Assembly (NCBI GenBank): GCA_020072645.1
Contig: JAIQGK010000002.1
Span: forward strand, 186,001 to 250,000
DNA length: 64,000 nucleotides
Reading direction: 5' to 3'
Source of the DNA: Terriglobia bacterium
GTDB lineage: Bacteria; Acidobacteriota; Terriglobia; Terriglobales; Acidobacteriaceae
The translations under genes and the position numbers were made by a program. The notes under the pieces were generated by a model. That model did no database searches and had not been told where the DNA came from. It worked only from the letters and a program-made list of their open reading frames with translations. This document shows, piece by piece, positions 5,268 through 34,728 of the stretch; within the stretch, counting starts at the first letter, position 1; each line of letters begins with the position of its first letter.

Positions 5268-5545
5268 GGTTGCGGCTTTACGAAGCATCGGGGCGGTAGC
5301 CCCGCCTGGGATGCGAATGGGGCGAGCGCCCGCAGCCCAAAACGAGCATTCCGGCAAAGATTTTCCGCGTACATCATCGCGCACACCGTCGCGCACTTTG
5401 CGGCGCACATCGACTGCGCGATGGTGTAGGCGGTGAGCCATGCGACGGGGTGACTGAGCTTGGTGTGCCTTAAGGCCGCACCAAGCGGCGAGCAAGAAGA
5501 CGGGGGACTCTGCCGAGAGGGTTGCTATGCGAGTGAGAGGATGCA

Positions 5546-6328
5546 TCAATGCTGCCCTCCGTTGGACACAACAACGAGCTGCGGCTTGAGCCATGTGTCG
5601 AGATTGGCGAATTGAAACATCTTGTAGTCAGCAAAGGTGCGGGTCAGATGCAAGCGTTCGATCTCTCTCAACTCCTGAATCCTGGCGGTGAGGGATTGAT
5701 GCAACGTGTGCTGATCTTCGGGCGTCTTTGTGATCCAGAGCACGTAGTCATATTCTTCGGCATTGATGTGCCGAATATGGCCGGGAATGATGTTCTCTTT
5801 GTAGCGGGCCGGACTTTTGAGGGAGAGTTCGCATTCGATTGCCACCCTGCGGCCATGAGGATCAAGGGCGGTTAGGTCGGGGCGAACGTTGTACTTGGAC
5901 TCGGCTCTGTCTGGGTTTGCTCTTGCTTCGCGATCACAATAGACAAACTCTGTCCAGCCGAATCGCTCCCCGGTAATGCGGATTTGCTGGAGCGACAAAT
6001 AGTGTTCAAGCCGCGAGACGCTGACTTTGGAAATGTTAAAAGTCAGCGGGCTAACTTCTTCGCCTGAGGGTGTGGCAAGCTGCTGGCCCTCAGAGGTAAT
6101 TCCCCAAAGTGTGATGAATGCCATAGCCGTGCGGATCGGAACACGGCGTATGAGGCCAGCTTGCTCTAAACGAACGAGAGCGTTATGGACAGTGCTGCGA
6201 TGTTTGATGCGCATGACCTGTCCGAGAAGCGACTCCGTGGAATAAACGGATGTGCGTAGGAACGAAAGCACGTCCCGCGTTTTGCGGTGGCTTTGCTCAT
6301 AGGCGAGAGTGCGGGGAAGAAGGGACAT
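5546..6328 (-). CDS. Replication-relaxation family protein (mobilisation factor)
   Basis: The 260-residue protein has an N-terminal winged-helix-like half (residues 10-75, with HNALVRLEQAGLIRRVP as the recognition region). The C-terminal half contains the pattern RPDLTALDPHGRRVAIECEL...SPARYKE, matching the replication-relaxation (Replic_Relax/MobC-like) family; the D...E.E arrangement resembles a restriction-like nuclease core. Members process or bind plasmid and conjugative-element DNA. It ends next to the hairpin tract, and the coupling ATPase gene ends five bases upstream of its start, so it is the best local candidate for the DNA-recognition or nicking component. No classical HUH relaxase is visible in the window. 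Catalytic activity is inferred. Confidence 0.7.
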   Translation of the reverse strand: MSLLPRTLAYEQSHRKTRDVLSFLRTSVYSTESLLGQVMRIKHRSTVHNALVRLEQAGLIRRVPIRTAMAFITLWGITSEGQQLATPSGEEVSPLTFNISKVSVSRLEHYLSLQQIRITGERFGWTEFVYCDREARANPDRAESKYNVRPDLTALDPHGRRVAIECELSLKSPARYKENIIPGHIRHINAEEYDYVLWITKTPEDQHTLHQSLTARIQELREIERLHLTRTFADYKMFQFANLDTWLKPQLVVVSNGGQH

Positions 6329-21422: not shown

Positions 21423-24146
21423 ATGAGTCCCGAGGAAATGTTCAAAACGCCACCGGGCAAATCGGAGCACGTCACTCGCAAGTCATTGATTGACAGCAAG
21501 CTAAAGGCCGCTGGCTGGCGAGTGGTTCCTTTCGATCCGTCAAGACCACTCACAAACCTCAACCGATGTGCAATCGAGGAGTACCCCACCGAGAATGGGC
21601 CAGCCGACTATGCCCTCTGCGCCGACGGCGGAATCCTCGGAGTCGTCGAAGCGAAGAAGCTGAGTCTGGGCCCGCAAAACGTACTTACGCAGGCCGAGCG
21701 TTACTCAAGGGGGCTAATCGTTAGCCCGTTCGATTTTTGCGGGTACCACGTGCCGTTCCTCTTTTCAACTAACGGCGAAGTAATTTGGTACCACGATGTC
21801 CGAAGTGAATCAAGCCGCTCACGCCAGATCGCGAAATTCCATACCCCGGACGCGCTCGCGGAGTTTTTGGCACGGGACCTCGAAGGAGCCACGGTGAAAC
21901 TCCGTGCGATGCCCAACGATCATCCACGGATTGTCGCGCGACCGTACCAGATCGATGCCAACCGCGAGATAGAGAAGGCAATCGAGGCGCGCAAGCGCCA
22001 AATGCTCGTAGCGATGGCCACTGGCACCGGCAAGACCTTCATGACGGTGAACGAAATCTACCGCCTTATGAAGTCGGGTGTGGCCAAGCGCATTCTCTTT
22101 TTAGTAGACAGGAGAGCGCTCGCCGCCCAGGCGGTACGAACGTTCGCATCCTTTGAGCCAGAGCCGGGGCTGAAGTTCAACAAGATCTATCAGGTATACA
22201 GTCAGAAATTCCAGCGTGAGGACTTTGGCGAAGAAGAGAAGTTCGATCCAACCGTCTTGCCCAATTCTTATCTGGTGTCCCCGAAGCCCGGAGATGCCTT
22301 CGTGTATGTGTCAACCATCCAGCGAATGGCGATCAATCTTTTTGGACGCGAAACAGTTCTCGGAGACAAAGACGAGGTCCCGGAAGAAGATGCCGAACAG
22401 GTCGAGAATATCCCGATTCATGCTTTCGACCTAATCATTGCAGACGAATGCCATCGCGGATATACGGCAACGCAAGTAGCCATCTGGCGACAAACCTTGG
22501 AACACTTCGATGCGATCAAGATCGGGCTTACCGCAACACCCGCGTCGCACACCACGTCTTATTTCAAGGATGTAGTATTTCGCTATGAATACGAACGCGC
22601 TGTGCGCGAGGGTTTCCTCGTCGATTACGACGTGGTTGCGATCTCGTCTGAGGTTCGCATGAAAGGTATTTTCCTTAAGGAAGGGGAAGAAGTCGGCATC
22701 GTCAATTCTGAGACAGGCGCGAAGCAGCTCGACCTACTTGAGGACGAGCGCCAGTTTGACACCACGGAAATCGAAGAGAAGGTCACCTCACCCGACTCAA
22801 ATCGGAAAATTCTGGAAGAAGTGAAGAAGTGCGCGCTCGAACATGAAACACGTTACGGTAGAATCCCGAAGATCCTCATTTTCGCCGCCAATGATCTTCC
22901 CCACACCTCTCACGCAGATCAGCTCGTCGACATTGCCCGCGACGTATTCGGCCGCGGTGATTCATTCGTGCAAAAGATCACGGGCTCCAAGACAGTGGAC
23001 CGCCCACTACAGCGCATCCGGGAATTTCGCAACCGGCCGCTGCCCGTAGTCGTGGTTACTGTCGACATGCTTTCGACTGGTGTGGACATCCCCGACCTTG
23101 AGTGTATCGTCTTCTTGAGGCCGGTGAAGTCGCGCATTCTCTTTGAGCAGATGCTCGGACGCGGAACCCGTAAAGGCGACAAATTTCCAGACAAGTCGCA
23201 CTTCACTGTCTTTGATTGCTTCGGCGGAACACTGCTTGAGTATTTCAGGAACGCGACGGATATTACCGCAGAGCCCTTGGAGAAAGAGGCGCGGACAATC
23301 TCGGAGGTCATCGAGGATATTTGGCAGAATCGCGACCGCGACTACAACGTGCGGTGTCTCGTCAAGCGCTTGCAACGGATCGACAAAGAAATGTCAGGCG
23401 AGGCACGGGACCTTTTTGCGGCCTACGTCCAGAGCGGGGATCTCGGTGGGTATGCCAAGAACTTGCCTAAAAGCCTGAGACAGGACTTTACCGGAACTAT
23501 AGGCCTTTTGCGGGATGCAGCATTCCAGAAACTACTTGTCGAATATCCTCGGGCGAAAAGGACGTTTGTCATCGCCTATGACACGAAGGATCAAGTCACT
23601 TCGGAGTGGTTGGTCCGCGGAGCGGATGGGAAAGAGTACAAGCCGGGGGATTATCTGCAAGCGTTCGCAAGATTTGTCGAGGAAAATCCTGAGCATATCG
23701 AGGCAATACGAATATTGCAGAAGAGTCCCGCGGACTGGGGTGCGGCAGCGCTTGCGGAGTTAAGAAATAAGCTGAAGGCAGCACCTCAACGTTTCACTGT
23801 CGAGAACCTGCAAAAAGTTCATGAGATCCAGTATCACAAAGCGCTCGCCGATATCATCTCGATGGTGAAACATGCTGCCGACAAGCAAAACCCCTTGCTA
23901 ACTGCAAGCGAGCGGGTCGAACGGGCGTTTGCGACAGTAAGTTGCGGACGGAAATTCATGCCGGAACAACAGCAATGGTTGGAGCGGATTAAGGCGCACT
24001 TGACTGAAAACTTGTCCATCGACCAAGAGGACTTTGAGATCCTCCCGATCTTCGCTCGTTTCGGCGGCTGGAAGAAAGCCAACGGAGTCTTCTTCGGCGA
24101 ACTGCCGCAGCTTATTCATTCATTTAATAAGGCGGTAGCAATATGA
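21423..24146 (+). CDS. hsdR: Type I restriction endonuclease subunit HsdR (EcoEI-type)
   Basis: This is a 907-residue restriction and translocation subunit. The N-terminal nuclease domain shows PADYALCADGGILGVVEAKK (about residues 60-79; the D and E-x-K motif of type I nucleases). The helicase core follows: Walker A MATGTGKTFMTV near residue 198, DECH box near 340, GLTATPA near 367 and TVDMLSTGVDIPDL further on, with QMLGRGTRKGD as motif VI. The C-terminal part is the EcoEI-type R domain. It cuts unmethylated DNA after translocation. The ATG has little Shine-Dalgarno; Met6, preceded by GAGGA, is an alternative. It overlaps hsdM by four bases. Confidence 0.93.
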   Translation: MSPEEMFKTPPGKSEHVTRKSLIDSKLKAAGWRVVPFDPSRPLTNLNRCAIEEYPTENGPADYALCADGGILGVVEAKKLSLGPQNVLTQAERYSRGLIVSPFDFCGYHVPFLFSTNGEVIWYHDVRSESSRSRQIAKFHTPDALAEFLARDLEGATVKLRAMPNDHPRIVARPYQIDANREIEKAIEARKRQMLVAMATGTGKTFMTVNEIYRLMKSGVAKRILFLVDRRALAAQAVRTFASFEPEPGLKFNKIYQVYSQKFQREDFGEEEKFDPTVLPNSYLVSPKPGDAFVYVSTIQRMAINLFGRETVLGDKDEVPEEDAEQVENIPIHAFDLIIADECHRGYTATQVAIWRQTLEHFDAIKIGLTATPASHTTSYFKDVVFRYEYERAVREGFLVDYDVVAISSEVRMKGIFLKEGEEVGIVNSETGAKQLDLLEDERQFDTTEIEEKVTSPDSNRKILEEVKKCALEHETRYGRIPKILIFAANDLPHTSHADQLVDIARDVFGRGDSFVQKITGSKTVDRPLQRIREFRNRPLPVVVVTVDMLSTGVDIPDLECIVFLRPVKSRILFEQMLGRGTRKGDKFPDKSHFTVFDCFGGTLLEYFRNATDITAEPLEKEARTISEVIEDIWQNRDRDYNVRCLVKRLQRIDKEMSGEARDLFAAYVQSGDLGGYAKNLPKSLRQDFTGTIGLLRDAAFQKLLVEYPRAKRTFVIAYDTKDQVTSEWLVRGADGKEYKPGDYLQAFARFVEENPEHIEAIRILQKSPADWGAAALAELRNKLKAAPQRFTVENLQKVHEIQYHKALADIISMVKHAADKQNPLLTASERVERAFATVSCGRKFMPEQQQWLERIKAHLTENLSIDQEDFEILPIFARFGGWKKANGVFFGELPQLIHSFNKAVAI

Positions 24147-25642
24147 GCGACATTGTCGGGAAACTTTGGGGGTTTTGTCACACCCTGCGCCATGACGGGA
24201 TTGACTATGGCGATTATATTGAACAGCTCACGTATCTTCTGTTTCTGAAGATGGCCGATGAGCGTGGAATCGATCTCAGCGAAACCAAGTACGTAGCCGG
24301 CAACGGCAGAGACGTGGTTTTTGATTGCTCCTGGCCCGCTCTTGAAGCACAAGCCGGCACGGCGCTCACCGATCATTATGTTGCGGTGCTTCAGGCGTTA
24401 GGCAAACAGAAGGGCCTGCTTGGTGGCATTTTCGCTGGGGCGCTCTCGCGGTTCAACAATCCCGTGAACCTTAGAGCGCTCATCGGCGTCATTGACGAGA
24501 CGGAATGGACCGAGCTCGGCGTGGATGTGAAAGCGGCTGCCTTCGAAGGGCTTCTGGAGAAGGCCGCGAGCGAAGGCAAGAAGGGTGCGGGACAATACTT
24601 TACACCGCGCATCCTCATCCAATCTATCGTTCGGTGTGTGAAGCCCGATCCGAGAGCATATAAGGAATTTACGATTTGTGACCCTGCCTGCGGGAGCGGC
24701 GGGTTCTTGGTATCGGCCTACGAATGGTTCATGAGCGCGACCAAGGACGGCGCCCTTGACCGGGATCTTGCCAAGAGGATTCGTAAGACTACGTATTACG
24801 GGCAGGAGCTCGTCGCACGGCCGAAGCGCCTCGCGCTCATGAATCTGTATCTCCACGGTCTGGAACCTGTCATTAAGGGTGGGGACTCCATTTACGAGGT
24901 CCCCGACTCGCAGCGGTTCGATGTGGTACTGACAAATCCCCCATTTGGCACAAAAGGTGCGAATCAGGCCCCGGACCGAGATGATTTCACGATCGAGACA
25001 TCGAACAAGCAGCTCAACTTCTTGCAACACGTCCTCACTATTTTGAAGCCGGGTGGCCGAGCGGCAGTCGTGGTGCCCGATAATTGTTTGTTCGTGGATC
25101 AGGCGGGAGAAGTGTTCGAGATCCTAATGCAGGATTGCGTTTTGCACACGGTCTTGCGACTCCCGAATGGAACGTTTAGTCCTTATAGCCCTGGCACGAA
25201 AACGAACGTAATTTTCTTTACTAAGGGAGCGCCGACGGAGACTGTCTGGGTCTACGACGCGCGCAGCAATGTACCGCGGATCACGAAGAAGGACCGCCCG
25301 CTCACGCCGGAACATTTTGCGGAATTCGAGAAATGCTTCGGGAGCGATCCGAACGGTCTGGCGAAGCGCAAGGCGAGCGACTCGAAGGAAGATCGCTGGA
25401 GACCCTTCACAATAGCGGAAGTGAAGGTGCGCGACTACAAAATTGACGGGCTCAAGTGGCTGAAGGATGAGTCGCTTGGCGAATTTGATCCCGATATCGA
25501 ACCGCAGGAACTGGCGACGGACGCGATTGCGGAACTCGAAGGTGCAGTCGAAGAGTTGAACTCGATTTTGATGATGCTCGATTCGAATGACAACGGGAAT
25601 GGTAAGGCGGCCGAACCCGCCGCGGCAGGCAAGAAGGCATGA
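24143..25642 (+). CDS. hsdM: Type I DNA methyltransferase subunit HsdM
   Basis: This 499-residue N6-adenine methyltransferase has an N-terminal HsdM helical domain (residues 1-140, with GIDYGDYIEQLTYLLFLKMA), the cue GAGQYFTPR, the SAM-binding motif DPACGSGGFLVSA near residue 180 and the catalytic NPPFG motif near 265. Together with HsdS it protects host DNA and gives specificity to HsdR. It overlaps both neighbours by four bases (ATGA), so the three genes form one compact operon. No truncation is visible. Confidence 0.94.
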   Translation: MSDIVGKLWGFCHTLRHDGIDYGDYIEQLTYLLFLKMADERGIDLSETKYVAGNGRDVVFDCSWPALEAQAGTALTDHYVAVLQALGKQKGLLGGIFAGALSRFNNPVNLRALIGVIDETEWTELGVDVKAAAFEGLLEKAASEGKKGAGQYFTPRILIQSIVRCVKPDPRAYKEFTICDPACGSGGFLVSAYEWFMSATKDGALDRDLAKRIRKTTYYGQELVARPKRLALMNLYLHGLEPVIKGGDSIYEVPDSQRFDVVLTNPPFGTKGANQAPDRDDFTIETSNKQLNFLQHVLTILKPGGRAAVVVPDNCLFVDQAGEVFEILMQDCVLHTVLRLPNGTFSPYSPGTKTNVIFFTKGAPTETVWVYDARSNVPRITKKDRPLTPEHFAEFEKCFGSDPNGLAKRKASDSKEDRWRPFTIAEVKVRDYKIDGLKWLKDESLGEFDPDIEPQELATDAIAELEGAVEELNSILMMLDSNDNGNGKAAEPAAAGKKA

Positions 25643-27204
25643 GCACCACAGCCCAACAAGTCAGAACAGAAGTTGAGACACCCGAAACGGAGTTGCCGGA
25701 AGGGTGGGTTTTAGCTCTGCTTCCGGAGGTTTGCGAGCTCAACCCGCCAAAGCCTGCAGCCAACGCACTCCCTCCCGGGGCAGACGTTTCGTTTGTGCCC
25801 ATGCCAGCCGTAGACGCTGATTTAGGTGCGATTACCAAGGCGGAGAAGCGTCCATTTGTGAAAGTGCGGAAGGGGTACACCGCATTCAGAGATAACGATG
25901 TCCTCATGGCGAAAATCACGCCATGCATGGAAAACGGTAAAGCTGCCGTTGCGCGGGGCCTAGAAAACGGTCTTGGATTCGGTTCGACCGAGTTCCACGT
26001 GTTTCGGTCGAACGGAGCCATTCTGCCTGATTATCTGTACCATTTCATCCGTCAGGATTCTTTTCGACGATCTGCCGAAAACGAAATGACTGGCTCGGTC
26101 GGGCAAAAGCGTGTACCGGTTGATTTCCTCGAGGAAACAAGCATCCCAGTACCACCTTTGCCAGAGCAAGAACGGATTATTCAGAAACTCAACCAACTCG
26201 TTAACAACACCCGGTTGGTGCGCAATCGCCTGCATAAACTTCCAAAGATTCTGAAGCACCTTCGCGAAGCTGTGCTTGCGGCGGCGTGTTCCGGGAAGTT
26301 GACAGTGGAGTGGAGACGAGAACATCCGGATGTGGAACCTGCGTCGTCGTTATTAAAACGTATCGTTCTTAGCCGTAAAGGCCAAAAGAGCAGAGACGCA
26401 CGCGGGCGGCAAGAGTCCTCGGACGGTGATGACGAGGTCAATCGGTGGGATATCCCAGAGATGTGGGAATGGTGCAGGGTCGATCAAATCGCCACAGTTT
26501 CTCTCGGAGGAACTCCATCTCGGAAAGTTGCTGCATATTGGGGCGGTGATATTGCGTGGGTGAGTTCCGGAGAAGTTGCAAACTGTCGAATCCGTAAGAC
26601 AAACGAGACCATTTCTGATCTCGGGCTCGAAAAGAGCAATGCAAAACTCTACCCGAGGGGAACGGTGTTGATCGCGATGATTGGGGAAGGGAAAACGCGT
26701 GGGCAAGCTGCAATCCTGGAAATTGAGGCCTGCACCAACCAGAACGCAGCAGGTTTGATAGTTGAGCCGGGAACCGTCAATTCCGAGTATGTCTGGCTTT
26801 GGGCGCTGAGCGAGTACGAGAGAACTCGTGCAGTAGGTCGCGGCGGAAATCAACCTGCCCTTAATGGCGAGAAGGTGCGCAACTTGGAGGTTCCCTTGCC
26901 CCCAGTCGAAGAGCAGCAAGAAATCGTTCGCCGCGTTGAAGCTCTATTCAAATTGGCGGACGCAATCGAAAAGAGGGTGGCCACAGTATCATTCCGGGCA
27001 GAAAGATTAACCCAAGCGATTCTCGCGAAGGCACTCCGAGGGGAACTCGTACCAATTGAAGCGGAGCTTGCTCGGCGAGAAGGTCGGGAGTATGAGCCCG
27101 CGTCGATGCTGTTGGAGAAAATCAAGACTGGAAGCAGCAAAGACGAAGCAAGGCGCGCTAGAACCCGCATAAGATGGCGTGTGGGTTCATCATCACATGG
27201 CTAA
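25639..27204 (+). CDS. hsdS: Type I restriction specificity subunit HsdS
   Basis: The 521-residue subunit has two target-recognition domains, the first at about residues 10-175 and the second at about 270-435. Each is followed by a conserved helical spacer. The first spacer is the stretch ending HLREAVLAAACSGKLTVEWR, the second RLTQAILAKALRGELVPIEA. TRD conserved motifs are visible (FRDNDVLMAKITPCMENGKA in the first, TVSLGGTPSRKVAAYWGGDI in the second). The bipartite recognition site cannot be predicted. The gene ends with the start of a degraded frame, so the downstream gene was lost. Length is typical or slightly long. Confidence 0.92.
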   Translation: MSTTAQQVRTEVETPETELPEGWVLALLPEVCELNPPKPAANALPPGADVSFVPMPAVDADLGAITKAEKRPFVKVRKGYTAFRDNDVLMAKITPCMENGKAAVARGLENGLGFGSTEFHVFRSNGAILPDYLYHFIRQDSFRRSAENEMTGSVGQKRVPVDFLEETSIPVPPLPEQERIIQKLNQLVNNTRLVRNRLHKLPKILKHLREAVLAAACSGKLTVEWRREHPDVEPASSLLKRIVLSRKGQKSRDARGRQESSDGDDEVNRWDIPEMWEWCRVDQIATVSLGGTPSRKVAAYWGGDIAWVSSGEVANCRIRKTNETISDLGLEKSNAKLYPRGTVLIAMIGEGKTRGQAAILEIEACTNQNAAGLIVEPGTVNSEYVWLWALSEYERTRAVGRGGNQPALNGEKVRNLEVPLPPVEEQQEIVRRVEALFKLADAIEKRVATVSFRAERLTQAILAKALRGELVPIEAELARREGREYEPASMLLEKIKTGSSKDEARRARTRIRWRVGSSSHG

Positions 27205-27466: not shown

Positions 27467-28174
27467 TCAGCGCACATAGTCAACGTTCCACCACCAATTT
27501 GAACGATAAATGATTCTGTTGTCGAAGTTATTCCACCGAACAGCCTCCCACATCTGTCGCCCGTCGGTCCAAATCTTCACTTGATTGTTCAGTTTGTCAT
27601 GGACCTCAGCAGTTATGTAAGTTCGGTATGTTTCAGGAAGCGTTGCAAGTTTCGCGGCATAATTTGCCGCTCTCCCTACCCACACCACATCATTCGCGCC
27701 CCGCACACCAGTTCTGGCAATAAAAAGGTTGCTGGTGTCGATTCCTGTGACATGTTGAAGGCGGTATGTCTCGTTACTATACTGTGACTGCATTGCTGGA
27801 TTGATGATGTACGTCGCCGCATGATTGATCTTCAGAGCAGTACGAACAGCGGACGTATTTTTTGTGTTGCCGGTATAGACTGCCATAATGCGATCACCGT
27901 CGTAAGCAGTGATGGCTCCGCCTTCCGACCGAATGATCTTTGCTGCGCAATGCAAGAAACTTTTGTATATTTCTGCAGCAAAACTACCGATATGACTGTC
28001 GACCAAGTTGGTTGAATCCGCTAGGTCTGCATACAACACCGTAGCATCTAATTGTACGGCGTCATTACCGAGCTTTAGAGAATCGTCCGACGGGACGACC
28101 GTACCATCCCGCGTGTCCCAAGCAGCCTTGAATATGGTCGCTACTTCCTTCTCGAGATCGTCTTTGAGTGGCAT
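27467..28174 (-). CDS. pycC: PycC-like nucleotide cyclase (Pycsar cyclase)
   Basis: This 235-residue soluble class III cyclase domain has nothing attached, as in Pycsar cyclases, which make cCMP or cUMP on phage infection. Asp50 (TVLYADLADSTNLVD) and Asp94 (AITAYDGDRIMAVY) are the two metal ligands. VWVGRAANYAAKLATLP carries Asn171 and Lys175, at the places of the transition-state Asn and Arg of adenylate cyclases. The substitutions relative to canonical adenylate cyclases suggest a pyrimidine substrate, but that is inferred. It is the last gene of the six-gene operon and begins nine bases after the PycTIR-like gene ends, the pairing described for Pycsar systems. Confidence 0.82.
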   Translation of the reverse strand: MPLKDDLEKEVATIFKAAWDTRDGTVVPSDDSLKLGNDAVQLDATVLYADLADSTNLVDSHIGSFAAEIYKSFLHCAAKIIRSEGGAITAYDGDRIMAVYTGNTKNTSAVRTALKINHAATYIINPAMQSQYSNETYRLQHVTGIDTSNLFIARTGVRGANDVVWVGRAANYAAKLATLPETYRTYITAEVHDKLNNQVKIWTDGRQMWEAVRWNNFDNRIIYRSNWWWNVDYVR

Positions 28175-28183
28175 AGGTGTCGA

Positions 28184-29089
28184 TCAGTTGTTGGGGCCGA
28201 GGTCTTTAATGATGGCCCGGATGCGATTGCATGCCGGCCCGACTGCAGACGCAAGATTCTCGGGGTCATATTTGTACGAAAGAGCCGTGATCCCGGAAAG
28301 ATCTGTCGGCAGTTTTACTTCCTCACCCCGAGGCTCGACCAGGAAGGAGCGCTGTCTACCGATGCGACCGATGAACAGCCCCAACTCGAAGATGACGTTG
28401 TCGCGCGCTGTAGGAGACGAACCTCCACGGCTCAACGTGATGTCGTCCGGCTGCGCGACCGCTATCGCAAAGTCGGACTGATCCAGCTGTCGCTCCAGGC
28501 TCTCGATTGGATACCAGGAAGCCCGGAAGACGCCATCAGTCCAAACGACAACCGTGAAGTCGTATTCAAACGCATTCTGAATTGTACGGGCAATCTCGAG
28601 TGCCTCCACGGACGAGATAATGAAAATACGAATCTTGTCATGGGTGGCGGTAACATGCGCATTGCGTTGCTCCAGCCGACGAGCAAGCTCCTTCGCAATT
28701 AAGCGCCAAATATCGGGAAAATCTCGACCAAGCTCACTGAGTTGCGGCTCTGTCAGCTTGCACAAAACAGATGGCTCGCTTGCAATGTTAGTGGCGGAGC
28801 GCCGCTGCGACGGTTGTATGGCTGCCATCTCGCCGACATGGTCGTTGGCGAACCGACGCGCTACTTTGCGTCCGTTGACTAGAATATCGAATGCGCCCGC
28901 GATGATCAGATAGACGTCGTTGTCTTCTGCGCCTTGTTCGATGATCGTCGTTCCAGGACTCACTTCTATGAGAGAACCCATGCTTGCAATCCGCTCGGCC
29001 AAGGTCGCATTCCCAGCTATGATCTTCTGATCGCGAAGCGCTTCAATCAGATTTTGCCGTCTGTGCTCGCCTTGAAAACGCTCTATCAT
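28184..29089 (-). CDS. pycTIR: PycTIR-like effector: cyclic-nucleotide-binding domain plus TIR-like domain
   Basis: In this 301-residue protein, residues 34-130 form a cNMP-binding domain (VYLIIAGAFDILVNGRKVAR, then the phosphate cassette HVGEMAAIQPSQRRSATNIA). Residues 150-290 match the TIR-like domain of CAP12/Pycsar effectors: KIRIFIISSVEALEIARTIQ, then SPTARDNVIFELGLFIGRIG, with Glu235 as candidate NADase glutamate. Known Pycsar TIR effectors bind cUMP or cCMP and destroy NAD+, killing the infected cell. The ATG at 29089 has GGAG eight bases upstream; an upstream GTG at 29107 has no such site. It is followed directly by the PycC-like gene. Confidence 0.85.
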   Translation of the reverse strand: MIERFQGEHRRQNLIEALRDQKIIAGNATLAERIASMGSLIEVSPGTTIIEQGAEDNDVYLIIAGAFDILVNGRKVARRFANDHVGEMAAIQPSQRRSATNIASEPSVLCKLTEPQLSELGRDFPDIWRLIAKELARRLEQRNAHVTATHDKIRIFIISSVEALEIARTIQNAFEYDFTVVVWTDGVFRASWYPIESLERQLDQSDFAIAVAQPDDITLSRGGSSPTARDNVIFELGLFIGRIGRQRSFLVEPRGEEVKLPTDLSGITALSYKYDPENLASAVGPACNRIRAIIKDLGPNN

Positions 29090-29140
29090 TCGTTCCACTC
29101 CAAACACCGCTAGTTATTTGCTCGTTTCGTCACGCTGTCG

Positions 29141-29752
29141 CTATTCGCCCCATAAATCGCTAAGATCGTAAGAATAATATTGATACTTCAAGCCCTTATG
29201 CTTCACTTCACCTTCGAAGGGTCCTTCCAGACCAGCGTACGGCCAGTTGGCTGCCGCTCTCGGGCCGATGACACAGCGGTCCCCCTTGCCAAATGCTGAA
29301 ATCCTCGAAGCATAGACAGTCGGCGGGCCTACCAGAAACGGTTGTACTCCAAGAAATGCCGAGGAAATACTGCTAACTTCGAGCTGGCCACCCTCGATGG
29401 CAATTTTAAGCCCGACCCCGACATCCAGTTGGGGCCAGGACTCGGGGCAATCTGTCAGGCAGTCTTTAAGGTACTCTCTGGTCTTTCGAAGATCCCGGGC
29501 AATGTCCCAGCAAGCGTGGGCCGCATCAGTCTCCGTCGGAAGTACGGCGATGAAACCGTCGCCCGTGAAGTTAATTACAGAACCATTGCATCTCTCAACG
29601 GCTTGAATACCGCCATTCAAGAGGTCCCTAAAGAACTGTCCCGTGAGACCATCCTCACCGGCATCGATTAACTTCTCGGAGCCATTGATGTCAACGATCA
29701 AGGCAACGCATGAAACGGTGTGCTGCTCATAAATCGTGCGTGGATCTAACAT
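29141..29752 (-). CDS. Stand-alone class III cyclase-like protein
   Basis: This 203-residue single cyclase domain keeps metal Asp21 (VALIVDINGSEKLID) and Asp65 (VINFTGDGFIAVLPTE). The later motif reads FLVGPPTVYASRI: the arginine (Arg150) is kept but the neighbouring asparagine is a valine (Val146). It may act as a homodimer or pair with another cyclase of the operon. It stands 51 bases upstream of the PycTIR gene. The ATG at 29752 has GGGAG five bases upstream; the ATG at 29764 is an alternative. Its substrate cannot be read from sequence. Confidence 0.78.
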   Translation of the reverse strand: MLDPRTIYEQHTVSCVALIVDINGSEKLIDAGEDGLTGQFFRDLLNGGIQAVERCNGSVINFTGDGFIAVLPTETDAAHACWDIARDLRKTREYLKDCLTDCPESWPQLDVGVGLKIAIEGGQLEVSSISSAFLGVQPFLVGPPTVYASRISAFGKGDRCVIGPRAAANWPYAGLEGPFEGEVKHKGLKYQYYSYDLSDLWGE

Positions 29753-29782
29753 TTGGTCTCCCATCGGATGACAAGGGAAAGT

Positions 29783-30499
29783 TTACAACTTCGTGGTGGT
29801 GGCATCCTCCGATACGGATTTCCCATAAAGAAACTGGAGTCTATTGCGACCGATGCGGCGAGTAATCTCCTCGACTCGATCAGCATGACAGCGCTTATAT
29901 TTCAGTTTGCTTCCACAAGGACACAACTCATTGCGTCCGGCGTGTATGCGACCGACGATTACGGGGAACAAGCAACGAAGGTGTTCTTCGTTCCCCCCAA
30001 GTATTAACAACATGAACTCGTCATAACCGTCGACGCCGTGTTTGAACTGTGGTCCCGGCCACTGCTGTCCGTTAATCGCGTCGTAAACGAGCTGGCGCTC
30101 CAAAAACACTGTCACTTCATCGAGGAACCGCAGCAATCTACACGGATTGTCCTTTGACCAAGGAGAGCATGGAGGAAGCCAAAGACAGAATTGGCCGTCT
30201 TTGAGAATGTGGCGATCTAGGGATGGGGCAAATCGTCCAGCAGCATCATATGCCGTGGGTTCACCTTCAGGATAGTTGGATGGGAAGTCGATCCGGATAT
30301 AGATTGAGGTGGAAATCCCGCAGTCGGCCTTGAGGATGAAGTCACCCTCTAAGCACATCCGTTCGCTCTTCGCATCGGCCCGAAACGCGAGGCCGGGGTA
30401 GTGTTCTGACACCAGTGCCTGCTCCTCGCGTAGAAGGCTTCGTCCATCGCGCTCGAACCACGGCTTTGGCTTACTCAGCAAATGACGACGATGGTACAA
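29783..30499 (-). CDS. E2-like domain fused to a SEC-C zinc motif
   Basis: In this 238-residue protein, residues 20-150 resemble prokaryotic ubiquitin-conjugating E2 domains: a strand-rich lead to YIRIDFPSNYPEGEPTAYDA, then RHILKDGQFCLWLP with His97 and candidate catalytic Cys105 spaced as in the E2 H-x-N-x-G-x-x-C region. The C-terminus carries a SEC-C motif, GRNELCPCGSKLKYKRCH (Cys193, Cys195, Cys204, His205), a zinc-binding peptide often used for protein contacts. The TTG at 30499 with GGGGAG seven bases upstream is preferred; the frame opens at 30586, 116 bases inside the upstream gene. No E1 or ubiquitin-like gene is nearby. Fold assignment is by pattern only. Confidence 0.65.
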   Translation of the reverse strand: MYHRRHLLSKPKPWFERDGRSLLREEQALVSEHYPGLAFRADAKSERMCLEGDFILKADCGISTSIYIRIDFPSNYPEGEPTAYDAAGRFAPSLDRHILKDGQFCLWLPPCSPWSKDNPCRLLRFLDEVTVFLERQLVYDAINGQQWPGPQFKHGVDGYDEFMLLILGGNEEHLRCLFPVIVGRIHAGRNELCPCGSKLKYKRCHADRVEEITRRIGRNRLQFLYGKSVSEDATTTKL

Positions 30500-32021
30500 A
30501 GGAGCGGCTCCCCACACTCGGTTGACTGGTGACCCGAGCGCCGCCGAGTCCGGTTGCGACATGAACCGTCTGCTTGAAGAGAGCAACTTTGCCTGCTCGT
30601 TCGACTTTATCTTGGGTCAGATTCGTCGCGACATAGAGACGCCGGTCGCCGTTCCAGAGGAAGAACTTTTGGAGTTCCTCCTCCAGATGCTTATGAAAAT
30701 GCGACGGGATTGCGATCTCTCCTCCTGCGCTGCTCTCCTGAAAGGTTGCCGCATCTTCGACTGCTTCTCCGATGCAGATGCGATCCCGGTGTCCTCGGGT
30801 TCCAAGTTTTGATACGAGCGTCGTCCCGATCGAACTGCCGACGGCCATGCCGAGATCCTTCGCCTCCGGGAGTAGCGTCTTGATAACGAGTTCCATAGCA
30901 GAATGAAGTGCGACAGCAGTGTCGACAGCTCGGGCGACAATGCGCTTTTCATCTCCTTGAGGCAGATGAAACAGCGCCTGGACACGGTCACCCTGAAATT
31001 GGACCCTTAGCCCGGAAAAATCGTGCTTAACAATTGAAGCCATCTCTTTCCGAATCGCGTGCAATACTCTCAGGGCCGTCTTCCCACTGTTCTCGCCGAC
31101 CGCTTTGTCGATGTACGCGGTAAAGCCGGATACGTCACCGAAGACGGAGGCTGCCAAGACCCGCTTGTTATTGGTGATGCCGAGTGCATCGATATCAATC
31201 AACACCTCTGCGTCACTGTATTCGATCTGGTTGAGCGGGTACATTGCCTTGTCATCCTTCAGCCGCTGAAGACTCGCCGTGCGATCCCAGTTGATACCGT
31301 GCTCCACGAGGAGCGCATCCATTTCCTCCGTTGAAACGGCACCCATCTCGTAGACCGTTACGCTGAGCCGACTGTCTTCGACTTCTGTAAAGTAAGGCTG
31401 CAGGGTATCGGGTAGGGCTTCGTAAATCGTCTTCGTGACGCGAATGCCGTCCGTCCCTGTGAGAATCTTGGCGGCGTAGTTGGCCGGCGCTCCGAGAAAC
31501 AGCAACTCGCGGTCGCCTCGATGACCGTTTTTTGTTCCGATAGCGTATCCAATGTCGCCGCCGCCGGAAACAGACAGGTTGGGCAACTTTGGGAACTCCG
31601 GGTTGAACACGCAGCGAACAAAGTATCGCAGAACCATTTGTAGCAGTACGGCGCGCGCCGCGATCTCAGCGGAATTATCGATCGGTCGGAAGAAAAGTGC
31701 GTGCAGCTTTGCACCCTGAAAATGTATGCGGACCCCGTCGAAGATATCTTGCCCCTCAACGATCCGAGCCACCTCGCGCTCGTAGATATGCAGCGCCTGA
31801 ATCACCCGGCGATATTCCTCGCCCTCCGCTGCCATAGTCGCTAGATCCGCGAAGTTGGGAACATCAATATAGACGTGCGCGCCATAAATATCCCGGCAGC
31901 AGGTCTCAGAGAGGAGACTGTGCAGGTCGGCATCGCGTACGAGCTTTTCGACTTCGATTTCACCCATGTCGTTCAGGTGGCTCTGGACTCGGTCGAGACT
32001 TATGTCATGGTTCCAACTCAT
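30471..32021 (-). CDS. Tandem class III cyclase protein with split catalytic residues
   Basis: This 516-residue protein has two cyclase domains. The first (about residues 45-190) has Asp53 and the NYAAK motif (Asn181, Lys185), but Ala104 replaces the second metal aspartate (RIHFQGAKLHALFF). The second (about 285-435) has both metal ligands (Asp296 in SVFGDVSGFTAY, Asp345 in VQFQGDRVQALF), but its NxAAK position reads VEDAAT. One complete composite site is therefore expected, as in mammalian adenylate cyclases. The NYAAK motif is identical to that of the PycC-like cyclase. The ATG at 32021 has AGGGAGA upstream; an open lead to 32189 is ignored. It begins 31 bases after the cNMP-binding cyclase gene ends. 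Confidence 0.82.
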   Translation of the reverse strand: MSWNHDISLDRVQSHLNDMGEIEVEKLVRDADLHSLLSETCCRDIYGAHVYIDVPNFADLATMAAEGEEYRRVIQALHIYEREVARIVEGQDIFDGVRIHFQGAKLHALFFRPIDNSAEIAARAVLLQMVLRYFVRCVFNPEFPKLPNLSVSGGGDIGYAIGTKNGHRGDRELLFLGAPANYAAKILTGTDGIRVTKTIYEALPDTLQPYFTEVEDSRLSVTVYEMGAVSTEEMDALLVEHGINWDRTASLQRLKDDKAMYPLNQIEYSDAEVLIDIDALGITNNKRVLAASVFGDVSGFTAYIDKAVGENSGKTALRVLHAIRKEMASIVKHDFSGLRVQFQGDRVQALFHLPQGDEKRIVARAVDTAVALHSAMELVIKTLLPEAKDLGMAVGSSIGTTLVSKLGTRGHRDRICIGEAVEDAATFQESSAGGEIAIPSHFHKHLEEELQKFFLWNGDRRLYVATNLTQDKVERAGKVALFKQTVHVATGLGGARVTSQPSVGSRSFVPSSSFAE

Positions 32022-32052: not shown

Positions 32053-33132
32053 TCATTGCCCGTTCTCCATGCTGTAAAGACAGACCTCGCCGATTCCTTT
32101 GAGCGGCACATTGGAATGAGCACGCAATTGGGTCCTTTCGGTCGCCGCCAGGTGTTCGTAGACGTCTGCCGATAGGACAACTGAAGCATTCAGTTCTTTG
32201 CATGCGCTTTCGCACCGTGCTGCGAGATTTACGGGAGGGCCGAGAACGGTAAATTGTCTCTTCAAGTCGCTGCCGACATTTCCACAGAAGATCTTCCCTG
32301 AACTCAGACCAACGCCGATCTTGACTGGGTTATTGCCGATTGTCTTCTTCGCAGCGCGGTCCACCATCTGCGTCGCGCAAGCGAGCGCCTCGGACGCCTG
32401 ATTATCAACATCAAAAGGAAACCCCCAAACGCCCATCACTGCATCGCCGATGAACTTGTCCACATACGCGTGATGGTCGAGGAGGATTTTGACCATCTCA
32501 TCGAGGTATTCCCCAAGCTGACTTGCCAGTGCATCCGGTGGCAGGGCTAGGCTCGTCGTCGTAAAACCGCGAATGTCCGCAAACAGAACAATGCCTTGAA
32601 TTAGCCGGGGGTTACCGTAATCATCTCCTGAGCCCAGGAGCCGTGCGGTAATGTTCGGAGCAAGATGTGAGTTGAAAGCAGAAATCAGCCTGTGCTCATT
32701 TCGGTATCGAAATGCGCGTTCCGACGTAGCGTCAGCGAGTTTCGCCGACACGATCGCCAAGAGGTTGCGCGTGAACTGGTGACTGGTGGCCTGCAGCCGC
32801 CTAATTTCTGCGTAGGGGATGCGGAGAACTTCCACCGTTCCACAAGCAACCGCATCGGCTGTCCGGCGAGCACCCGGAGCGAGGAAGCCTTGCTCCCCTA
32901 CAACATCGGTGGCACGCCGTGTCACTAGAAACGTGTCCTGAGAAAGAATCCGAACCTCACCGCGCAGGATGACGAGCATACTGTCCGCGAGCTCACCTTG
33001 TACGCAGATTTTCTGCCCGTCGTTGTAGAAAAAGATCCAGTCTTCGACGTTGGGGATGATCGTCGTGTCCGCTATACCCTCGAACAGAGGGATATTTGAG
33101 AGATCAAGCTTCGTGTTGTCCCATGCCGCCAT
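32053..33132 (-). CDS. cNMP-binding domain fused to adenylate cyclase domain
   Basis: This 359-residue protein is the first gene of the operon. Residues 10-125 form a cNMP-binding fold (MLVILRGEVRILSQDTFLVT, then VVGEQGFLAPGARRTADAVA with Glu80 and Arg90). Residues 175-355 form a canonical class III cyclase: Asp186 (IVLFADIRGFTTTSL), Lys226 and Asp230 (YVDKFIGDAVMGVWG), and Asn302/Arg306 (TVLGPPVNLAARCES). The residues fit ATP as substrate. It has no membrane segment. The ATG at 33132 has AGGA upstream and lies about 40 bases after the predicted transcription start; an upstream TTG at 33177 would be before it. It could act as a sensor-amplifier in the pathway. Confidence 0.85.
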   Translation of the reverse strand: MAAWDNTKLDLSNIPLFEGIADTTIIPNVEDWIFFYNDGQKICVQGELADSMLVILRGEVRILSQDTFLVTRRATDVVGEQGFLAPGARRTADAVACGTVEVLRIPYAEIRRLQATSHQFTRNLLAIVSAKLADATSERAFRYRNEHRLISAFNSHLAPNITARLLGSGDDYGNPRLIQGIVLFADIRGFTTTSLALPPDALASQLGEYLDEMVKILLDHHAYVDKFIGDAVMGVWGFPFDVDNQASEALACATQMVDRAAKKTIGNNPVKIGVGLSSGKIFCGNVGSDLKRQFTVLGPPVNLAARCESACKELNASVVLSADVYEHLAATERTQLRAHSNVPLKGIGEVCLYSMENGQ

Positions 33133-33178
33133 CTGATCCTGTTTTCTCCACCAAGGCCCTTCCTTGCTGGTTCGCAAT

Positions 33179-33263: not shown

Positions 33264-33298
33264 GGGCGTAGTGAAAAATTCAGCCTTTTTTGGTGCCT

Positions 33299-33706
33299 AT
33301 GCCGACAGTAGGTGACCGCATCCGCGAGATCCGCGAAGAGATGCAGATCAACCAGGAGCAATTGGCAAATCGAGCTGGTTTGAGCAAAGGATTCCTCAGC
33401 GATGTCGAGAACAACAAGCGTAATATTGGTTCAGAGAACCTACTAAAGATTGCGAATGTCCTTGGCGCGTCAGTTGATTACCTTCTTCGTGGAGAGGCCG
33501 TAGAGCCCACGAGTTCTGAACCTGTTGTCATCCCTCCAGAGCTTTCCCAAGCCGCAGAAGAATTGGAACTCTCCTACGCAGCTACAGTGGAACTCTTGGA
33601 GGCACATCGATCGGTTATTGCCCGTCGAAGCAACAAAGGACTACGCAAGTTTTCGGTTGAGGATTGGAAAGAGCTCCACAAGCTGATAAAGAAAGTGTTC
33701 GGTTGA
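33299..33706 (+). CDS. XRE-family repressor (defence regulator)
   Basis: In this 135-residue protein, residues 1-65 form a Cro/C1-type helix-turn-helix (MQINQEQLANRAGLSKGFLS, then DVENNKRNIGSENLLKIANV and SVDYLL). The C-terminal helical part (about 75-135) would mediate dimerisation or contact with the peptidase. The ATG at 33299 is preferred over a TTG nine bases upstream. It lies divergently to the cyclase operon and overlaps the ImmA-type gene (TGATG), so it is probably the operon repressor. The region is visibly AT-richer than its neighbours, consistent with transfer. Confidence 0.85.
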   Translation: MPTVGDRIREIREEMQINQEQLANRAGLSKGFLSDVENNKRNIGSENLLKIANVLGASVDYLLRGEAVEPTSSEPVVIPPELSQAAEELELSYAATVELLEAHRSVIARRSNKGLRKFSVEDWKELHKLIKKVFG

Positions 33707-34728
33707 TGTCACCCGCTTCTCTAAAACGCAACTACAAGATCCACGCTTTGGCCGGCGATCTCGGGATCAAGCCCTCAAGCGATCCGATAAGAGAAATCGT
33801 GCGTTTTTGCGAGAAGCGCATTCGACGATTTTTACGTGATTTTCCTGACTGTAAGACGCTCTCTCAATTGCTTGAAATCTCCGCGTCAAAACTAGGCACA
33901 AAATTTGAAGAGATCCACTCTGATACTGAACTAGTTGAAGTACGTGGACGTTACTTGCGCCAAAGTGAAAAGGCATTTGCGGGTCTTCACGAAGAGCTTT
34001 CAGCGAATGTTTTTGGCGTAACATTCAAGCGTCTCAATCGAAAAGCTTGGGAACTTCCGTACGTCTCTGTAATCGATTGTCGAGGGGAAAAGCAGTTCCG
34101 CTCGTATTACACCAAGTGGCATGAACTTGGTCATCTCTTGATACTTACGGACCAGATGCGCTTGGCATTCCGGCGAACACACTTTGGGTTGGACGACAAA
34201 GATCCAGAGGAGGCTTTGGTTGATGTAATTGCAGGTGCATTCGGATTTATGCCGGACCTTGTGAGTCCCCTTGCAAAAGGGCAGCCTTCTTTCGACCAAA
34301 TCGAAAATATCCGTATTAAGATTTGTCCGGAGGCAAGCCAGCAGGCTTCACTCATCGGAATCGCAAAGGCTTGGCCTACTCCATGTATCTTGCTCCAGGC
34401 ACAAATGGCTCTCAAGCGTGGCGAACGAAGAGAGCTTGCGCAAAGAACTCTGAGCTTTCAGGACAAACCCAAAGAGGTACTTCGGGCCGTACAAGTAATG
34501 ATGAATGACGCTGCTCGCAGCGCAAATTTTGTGATTTTCCCAAACATGCGAGTTCCCGAACGCTCCATTATTCATCGAGTTTTTGCGGGTGAGACCGTCA
34601 CTAGCCCAACAGTTGAGGATCTGTCTTTGTGGGAATCAAGCGATGGAAGTCGCCTTCCAGCCGCTAAGGTGCTCGTTCAGGCTCGACGGGCTTGGGATGG
34701 GGTTCGCGCGTTGATCACACCGCGTTAG
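33706..34728 (+). CDS. ImmA/IrrE-family metallopeptidase
   Basis: This 340-residue protein has the zinc motif KWHELGHLL (His139, Glu140, His143) and, about 25 residues on, DPEEALVDVIAGAFGFMPDL supplying the third ligand. The N-terminal 130 residues carry an unassigned domain. ImmA-type enzymes cleave a partner XRE repressor after a signal such as single-stranded DNA, so the pair forms an inducible switch. Here it overlaps the XRE gene and faces the cyclase operon. The ATG at 33706 is the coupled start; an earlier start in the open frame at 33664 would overlap the repressor. Confidence 0.87.
   Translation: MSPASLKRNYKIHALAGDLGIKPSSDPIREIVRFCEKRIRRFLRDFPDCKTLSQLLEISASKLGTKFEEIHSDTELVEVRGRYLRQSEKAFAGLHEELSANVFGVTFKRLNRKAWELPYVSVIDCRGEKQFRSYYTKWHELGHLLILTDQMRLAFRRTHFGLDDKDPEEALVDVIAGAFGFMPDLVSPLAKGQPSFDQIENIRIKICPEASQQASLIGIAKAWPTPCILLQAQMALKRGERRELAQRTLSFQDKPKEVLRAVQVMMNDAARSANFVIFPNMRVPERSIIHRVFAGETVTSPTVEDLSLWESSDGSRLPAAKVLVQARRAWDGVRALITPR

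Follow-up and report, generated by a model that had tools for sequence, protein, structure and literature searches.

The stretch of DNA analysed here (the window, 64,000 nucleotides of a Terriglobia bacterium contig) carries a Pycsar-type operon in which an open reading frame (ORF) on the minus strand (29783-30499) encodes an E2 domain joined to a SEC-C motif, an identity confirmed at the level of sequence. Pycsar is a phage-defence system in which a cyclase makes a cyclic nucleotide (cUMP or cCMP) as an alarm signal. This stand-alone E2 probably acts as a control on the two-domain Pycsar cyclase (30471-32021, minus strand), the end of whose gene overlaps its own, and would do so without an E1; a probability of roughly 0.6 is assigned to this reading. 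Comparison across surveyed loci indicated that genes of ubiquitin-type conjugation are the normal companions of such cyclases and that cyclases differ in their tails according to the type of partner, which suggests that the cyclase is controlled by attachment to other proteins.

The E2-SEC-C protein and its conserved residues

The ORF comprises 238 amino acids with a TTG start at 30499, and its frame stays open to a second TTG at 30586. From the TTG at 30499, the gene shares its first 29 bases with the 3' end of the two-domain cyclase gene. An earlier note on this DNA had described an E2-type spacing, RHILKDGQFCLWLP, with a candidate active-site cysteine at residue 105, followed by a CPC...CH motif. 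The spacing with Cys105 was confirmed in the minus-strand ORF, and the CPC...CH motif was identified as SEC-C by a Pfam match (PF02810, 4.9e-09) at residues 189-206 (29882-29935, minus strand). Scans of the protein with Pfam and NCBIfam returned SEC-C-like matches only. Two PADLOC models named E2, which we take to belong to the CBASS set of that resource, covered nearly the whole protein (residues 24-222 at 1.2e-30 and residues 19-223 at 2.6e-29).

The profile search against E2 families that the earlier note had called for found E2 homology, and profiles of relatives extended it to solved structures. A 12-row profile of relatives of the window protein reached ubiquitin-conjugating (UBC) enzymes in the PDB at 1.1e-4, and a 25-row E2 profile reached UBC chains at 7.5e-4, with Cys105 aligned to their active-site cysteine; a seven-row profile of the E2 portion only reached no ubiquitin-conjugating enzyme in the PDB at 0.01. 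Profile-profile comparison (hhalign) showed the E2-SEC-C family to be homologous to a second family, E2-Cys-rich (98.2%, 5.4e-14), whose proteins match the Pfam 'Prokaryotic E2 domain'. A fold model of the E2-SEC-C protein, predicted from the single sequence without an alignment, had a mean pLDDT (predicted local distance difference test) of 33, too low to be informative.

Conservation of Cys105 among homologues, on which the earlier note had staked its reading, was complete, the residue being invariant in each alignment examined (12, 30 and 25 rows), and this cysteine (codon 30185-30187, minus strand) is the proposed catalytic residue. Two histidines are putative catalytic partners, namely His97 (codon 30209-30211, minus strand), invariant in the 12- and 25-row alignments and nearly so in the 30-row alignment, and His154 (codon 30038-30040, minus strand), invariant in all three. 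None of the 25 E2 domains in the 25-row alignment deviated at any of the three residues, and the pattern H-x(6-8)-C...H was present in 59 of 59 E2 partners of the two-domain cyclases surveyed below.

Conjugation genes behind two-domain cyclases and the tails of their clients

One genome per species (84,980 species) was scanned with an alignment of two-domain cyclases, and the best 80 of 156 relatives were kept. Two of the 80 (L093 and L130) were excluded as lying at contig ends, leaving 78 assessable loci. An E2 or E1-E2 gene was found directly behind the cyclase in 77 of these, with 52 partners being E2-Cys-rich, 7 E2-SEC-C and 18 ThiF/E1-E2 proteins; the E2-SEC-C partner of L058 was recognised by eye in the reading frames. 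The exception (L068) has no conjugation gene, and its downstream DNA resembles transposase remains by eye; it was counted as an exception to the pairing and omitted from the tail counts. Other rows were removed, these being L147 (an insertion sequence at the client position), L132-L134 (repeats of L054, L053 and L057) and L055 (on the same contig as L037). Given the pairing in 77 of 78 loci, an E2 or E1-E2 module of one of three kinds can be considered the normal companion of two-domain cyclases. PycTIR- or PycTM-like genes were present within the fetched stretch of 65 of the 77 loci. The earlier note had supposed an import of CBASS-type control into a Pycsar-like system; a conjugation-type module in Pycsar was indeed found, and the frequency of this pairing argues against a one-off import.

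Three ThiF proteins were tested with PADLOC and all three matched E1-E2 (4.7e-198, 4.3e-188, 6.4e-193). An ORF with a JAMM motif followed the ThiF gene in 15 of 18 loci, the remainder being one locus cut by a contig end (L066) and two without JAMM (L060, L079). Pfam Prok-JAB was identified in six of six JAMM ORFs tested (L063 9230-9748, L074 9227-9742, L103 9250-9765, L109 9250-9786, L127 9215-9811 and L083 9235-9762). ThiF/E1-E2 and JAMM genes behind a two-domain cyclase would, as judged from these matches, constitute a full Cap2/Cap3-like module in Pycsar.

Plasmids gave a similar picture, with a conjugation partner behind 16 of 16 two-domain cyclases examined, from 28 records with a match. 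The cyclase of a Pseudomonas aeruginosa plasmid (L046) aligns along its full length with 6YII, the clade A cyclase PaPycC of known structure, and an E2-Cys-rich frame absent from the PLSDB gene table lies directly behind its gene (about 5533-6309). On the basis of that table L046 and L051 had been candidates for two-domain cyclases lacking an E2, which was rejected as the DNA of both contains E2 frames, recognised by eye.

The C-terminal tails of the cyclases were found to follow the kind of partner. All 16 distinct tails of ThiF-partnered cyclases end in GFA. In the tails of cyclases partnered by E2-Cys-rich proteins, [RK]P[HYF] stands a few residues before the end in 40 of 45 distinct cases, and 36 of these 40 have A, C, S or T directly after it. 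For clients of E2-SEC-C proteins, a broad form of the tag ([KRSTP][PST][WFYH] followed by 1-6 residues) was present in 31 of 32 loci and a strict form ([KR]PW) in 14 of 32. The corresponding counts among 811 other ORFs of at least 200 amino acids in the 80 loci, which were mechanically called and are not all genes, were 40 and 0.

These 32 clients comprise 15 two-domain cyclases, one single-domain Pycsar cyclase (L043), 13 CD-NTase-like proteins (assigned by annotation, BLAST or eye, L138 weakly), one metallo-beta-lactamase (MBL)-fold hydrolase (L042) and two proteins of unassigned kind (L140, L141). KPW was identified on CD-NTases, the MBL-fold hydrolase, the single-domain Pycsar cyclase and one two-domain cyclase, each beside an E2-SEC-C gene, and near-identical ends occur on unrelated enzymes (PTKPW on the CD-NTase of L146, PTKSW and PTKSF on the cyclases of L144 and L055). 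A variable linker precedes the tag. Single-domain cyclase relatives with no downstream E2 pattern in their frames lack the tag (four of four).

Three further observations concern the tails. The motif RAH occurs twice in the cyclase tail in one E2-Cys-rich subtype (L048, L118, L119, L160, L162, L163). In L141, the product of the gene upstream of E2-SEC-C has KPW near its end and then about 21 residues, mostly hydrophobic, that resemble a membrane anchor placed behind the tag. A KPKPW at the N-terminus of the E2 itself was considered as a possible tag and rejected, L034 and L035 having KPKAW at this site.

The conserved tail could instead be unrelated to the E2. It might arise from the gene overlap, where a start or a ribosome-binding site has to be encoded, or might direct degradation or the docking of a different factor. 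The E2 start codon nearest to the cyclase stop overlaps that stop in 39 of 59 cases, a count favoured by choosing the nearest start. However, the codons of the tag vary freely (32 different 9-mers in 41 cases), the tag is also present in 14 cases in which the E2 starts more than four bases past the cyclase stop, unrelated enzymes beside E2-SEC-C share the KPW end and the tail type shifts with the partner type, all of which makes this the least probable of the explanations considered.

Several points weigh against a tail code read by the E2. The broad pattern for E2-SEC-C clients was fixed after inspection of the data; of the 20 loci retrieved once the motif had been put in writing, 6 conform to the strict form and 19 to the broad form (the misfit being L141). 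Besides the background ORFs given above, the broad form matches 14 single-domain PycC and 6 TIR proteins among 120 other Pycsar parts (20 in all), and as it fits 38 of 45 E2-Cys-rich tails it cannot separate these from E2-SEC-C tails. The tag of the window itself has Ser for the usual Lys/Arg and Phe for the usual Trp. Ten fresh plasmid loci were also compared, in which every cyclase has a partner. Neither of the two ThiF clients ends in GFA, both ending in GFS, and for one E2 subtype [RK]P[YH] was found in three of four tails, the fourth having TPY; for the other subtype, RAH was found in three of four and RSH in one. On a cyclase tree of 86 rows the partner type changes only four times, so that agreement of tails within a class is partly shared descent. 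ThiF partners appear in three places on this tree, at least two of them on well supported branches, and the tails there end in Ala. As descent contributes to agreement within classes, the best independent support for the tail code is the occurrence of KPW on unrelated enzymes.

A series of steps can be proposed for the window. The E2 would recognise a short tag on the C-terminal tail of the cyclase (VPSSSFAE, 30474-30497, minus strand), a putative substrate site suggested by the tail comparison, the gene pairing and the partner-specific type of tag. Cys105, aided by His97 and His154, may then attack the tail, remove its variable last residues and hold the cyclase as a thioester. Yan and colleagues reportedly found in 2024 that a Serratia CBASS has a single E2 which shortens the C-terminus of the cGAS and takes it onto the E2 cysteine; from this, from the conserved residues and from the tail extension in E2-only systems, we infer that the step could proceed without E1 or ATP. 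By analogy with type II CBASS, the cyclase might be handed to a lysine of itself or of another protein, which would prime or restrain it, and, as in studied members of Pycsar, the active cyclase would make a cyclic mononucleotide that switches on PycTIR, leading to destruction of NAD+. At a guess, SEC-C serves in docking of the client or the target.

The ends of the tails also bear on how the E2 might be charged. Clients of E1-E2 proteins stop exactly at GF[AS], while clients of E2-only systems carry the tag and a variable extension. The latter arrangement would be expected of a precursor needing trimming, and the former of a chain that ends at its reactive residue where an E1 is present. Both can be read as a straightforward extension of what Jenson et al. 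described for type II CBASS. Alternatively, the E2 might be charged by a host E1, or by an activating enzyme encoded at another place in the genome, and so attach either the cyclase or a host protein to a target. Known E2s are loaded by an E1, and type II CBASS of the Cap2 type requires an E1 domain (PMC10097602). Dependence on such an enzyme is nevertheless quite improbable, as the end of an E2-only client would have to be trimmed before an E1 could act on it. The earlier note had left a choice between acting alone and using a host E1; acting alone fits the tails better, and the host E1 is the less favoured half of that claim.

Another explanation is that the E2 is a binding partner only, which grips the tag and keeps the cyclase inactive or oligomeric without covalent chemistry, as inactive eukaryotic E2 variants do. 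The tail code by itself is compatible with binding, and no E1, ubiquitin-like, isopeptidase or JAMM gene was noticed in the window operon (the window genome was not searched for E1). However, Cys105 and the two nearby histidines are invariant in the aligned rows and the sister systems carry catalytic parts (E1-E2 and JAMM genes), so that binding alone is considered unlikely, though less so than the use of a host E1. Control by a stand-alone E2 acting through its cysteine remains the preferred reading. It retains from the earlier note the proposal that the protein may attach or prime a cyclase; a cyclase is the most likely client, the evidence points to the two-domain cyclase that the gene overlaps, and the covalent step would be as set out above.

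Surroundings of the operon and distribution of E2-SEC-C

The operon consists of six genes in the same direction, running from 33177 down to 27467 on the minus strand, and PADLOC matches bore out its earlier description as Pycsar-type. Its first gene encodes a cNMP-binding domain with a class III cyclase (32053-33177; PDLC00734 2.6e-48, Pfam Guanylate_cyc 2.4e-20 and cNMP_binding 8.4e-13) and is followed by those of the two-domain cyclase (PycC model PDLC00765, 7.7e-118, residues 2-508) and the E2-SEC-C protein. Next come a small divergent cyclase-like protein (29141-29764), the PycTIR effector with cNMP-binding and TIR domains (28184-29107; PDLC00731 1.5e-131, Pfam CAP12-PCTIR_TIR 9.1e-34) and a single-domain PycC (27467-28174; PDLC00766 4.6e-103). 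In clade A Pycsar, by definition, the PycC has two cyclase domains one after the other (PMC11224242), an arrangement found in the PycC of the window across the PDLC00765 match, and the PycTIR protein supplies the receptor-effector (PycTIR or PycTM) characteristic of Pycsar. The operon contains no CD-NTase, which characterises type II CBASS, its cyclases being of class III (PycC) types, and scans of the E2-SEC-C protein with PADLOC, Pfam and NCBIfam gave no match to ThiF (E1), which is fused to E2 in Cap2.

The small cyclase-like protein (207 amino acids) has a weak PycC match (3.4e-06) and ends in LWGE. It had no match on plasmids and, among nine genomes of the genus, was found only in its own; it is speculated that it could be a second client of the E2.

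Divergent from the operon (33290-34728, plus strand) are genes for a helix-turn-helix (HTH) protein (HTH_3, 1.7e-14) and, downstream of it, a protein that matches capP weakly (0.0014), both possibly regulators; similar ORFs also flank L034 and L035. Adjoining the operon on its other side (21423-27204, plus strand) are genes that resemble, by eye, the R, M and S subunits of a type I restriction-modification system, an arrangement like that of a defence island as far as can be judged by eye.

Matches that cover the E2 domain were found in 8 of 396 genomes of the window's phylum (E-values up to 2.1e-9), the weaker matches listed being SEC-C stretches. Among these eight, the window, L034, L035 and L037 have a two-domain cyclase followed immediately by the E2, and L038-L040 adjoin CD-NTase-like genes. 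L036, from a genome (G217) of the same family as that of the window, holds a broken E2-SEC-C copy with internal stops. Elsewhere, at the cut-offs used, matches to the PADLOC E2 model PDLC00872 were present in 3 genomes out of 398 from the Acinetobacter phylum, 4 out of 396 from the Amycolatopsis phylum and 3 out of 195 from the Anaeromyxobacter phylum. One Anaeromyxobacter genome (G403) carries three pairs of a two-domain cyclase and E2-SEC-C (L058, L135, L136), which do not count as independent genomes as all three lie in one.

On a Chryseobacterium plasmid (L043), a PycTM-like gene, the single-domain Pycsar cyclase and E2-SEC-C stand in a row. On a Runella slithyformis plasmid (L042, 4899-7350), the gene of the MBL-fold hydrolase, whose product ends in KPWQRG, is similarly followed by those of E2-SEC-C and of a small protein containing hydrophobic segments, possibly an E2-controlled system without a nucleotide cyclase. 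Four viral scans with single proteins and two protein searches of phage records found no relative; the E2 alignments had no stretch with enough conservation to serve in genome and viral scans.

Comparison with known systems

The gene families described here are already known, as PADLOC and Pfam hold matching E2, E1-E2 and JAB models. Pycsar is usually described as a cyclase and a receptor (PMC11224242), and a 2023 table of defence domains places prokaryotic E2 and JAB under type II CBASS and ISG15-like systems and not under Pycsar in the part available (PMC10952713). No report of an E2 in Pycsar was found in the literature searched, which was available in part and did not take in several key papers. 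The Pfam name E2-ntca may reflect an earlier notice of an association with cyclases. Within the bounds of that literature, the new elements are a Pycsar system with a conjugation module like that of type II CBASS and a tail code that was not seen described. If ubiquitin-type conjugation routinely governs two-domain cyclases, the silencing and switching on of Pycsar become directly testable. A tail code tied to the type of conjugating enzyme and borne by unrelated enzymes would make clear how an E2 manages without an E1 and would allow further clients to be recognised from sequence by a simple rule. It would also explain why, in CBASS operons of architectures other than Cap2/Cap3, the last residue is reported as not conserved (PMC10097602).

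The surveyed loci resemble Cap2/Cap3 of type II CBASS in having a conjugation module that acts, or would act, at the C-terminus of the signal-making enzyme (Jenson 2023, PMC10097602), with ThiF/E1-E2 present in 18 of 80 loci. The window differs from Cap2/Cap3 in that no E1 domain or JAMM gene was noticed and the tail of the client extends past the aromatic residue. The E2-ntca and E2-Crich proteins (Pfam PF20298/PF20272; NCBI 'E2 domain-containing protein') share with the window protein a homologous E2 core and the same place behind a two-domain cyclase, but have a different C-terminal metal-binding domain, and the window protein matches neither Pfam model. Clade A Pycsar, represented by PaPycC (6YII), has the two cyclase domains and PycTIR seen in the window, and the PaPycC gene on its plasmid is likewise followed by an E2 frame; this frame is of the Cys-rich kind, whereas the E2 of the window is of the SEC-C kind.

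The closest likeness is to short type II CBASS. The E2 of the Serratia marcescens system reportedly also lacks an E1 and stands directly beside the signal-making enzyme; in addition, the PADLOC E2 models match the window protein and CD-NTases beside E2-SEC-C bear a C-terminal KPW. The differences are that the client in the window is a class III (Pycsar) cyclase and not a CD-NTase, that its tag is SSF/KSF-like and not KPW, and that the window system is known from its sequence. A wider generalisation, held tentatively and at somewhat less than even odds, is that single E2s of bacteria make up a tagging module, portable and able to charge itself, which would recognise a short C-terminal tag on the client (typically basic-x-aromatic/His), cut off the variable residues behind it, keep the client as a thioester and conjugate it without E1 or ATP. 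The clients would include CD-NTases, two- or single-domain Pycsar cyclases and an MBL hydrolase, and Pycsar would then have counterparts of both the long (E1-E2 and JAMM, with a GF[AS] end) and the short (E2 only, with tag and extension) forms of type II CBASS.
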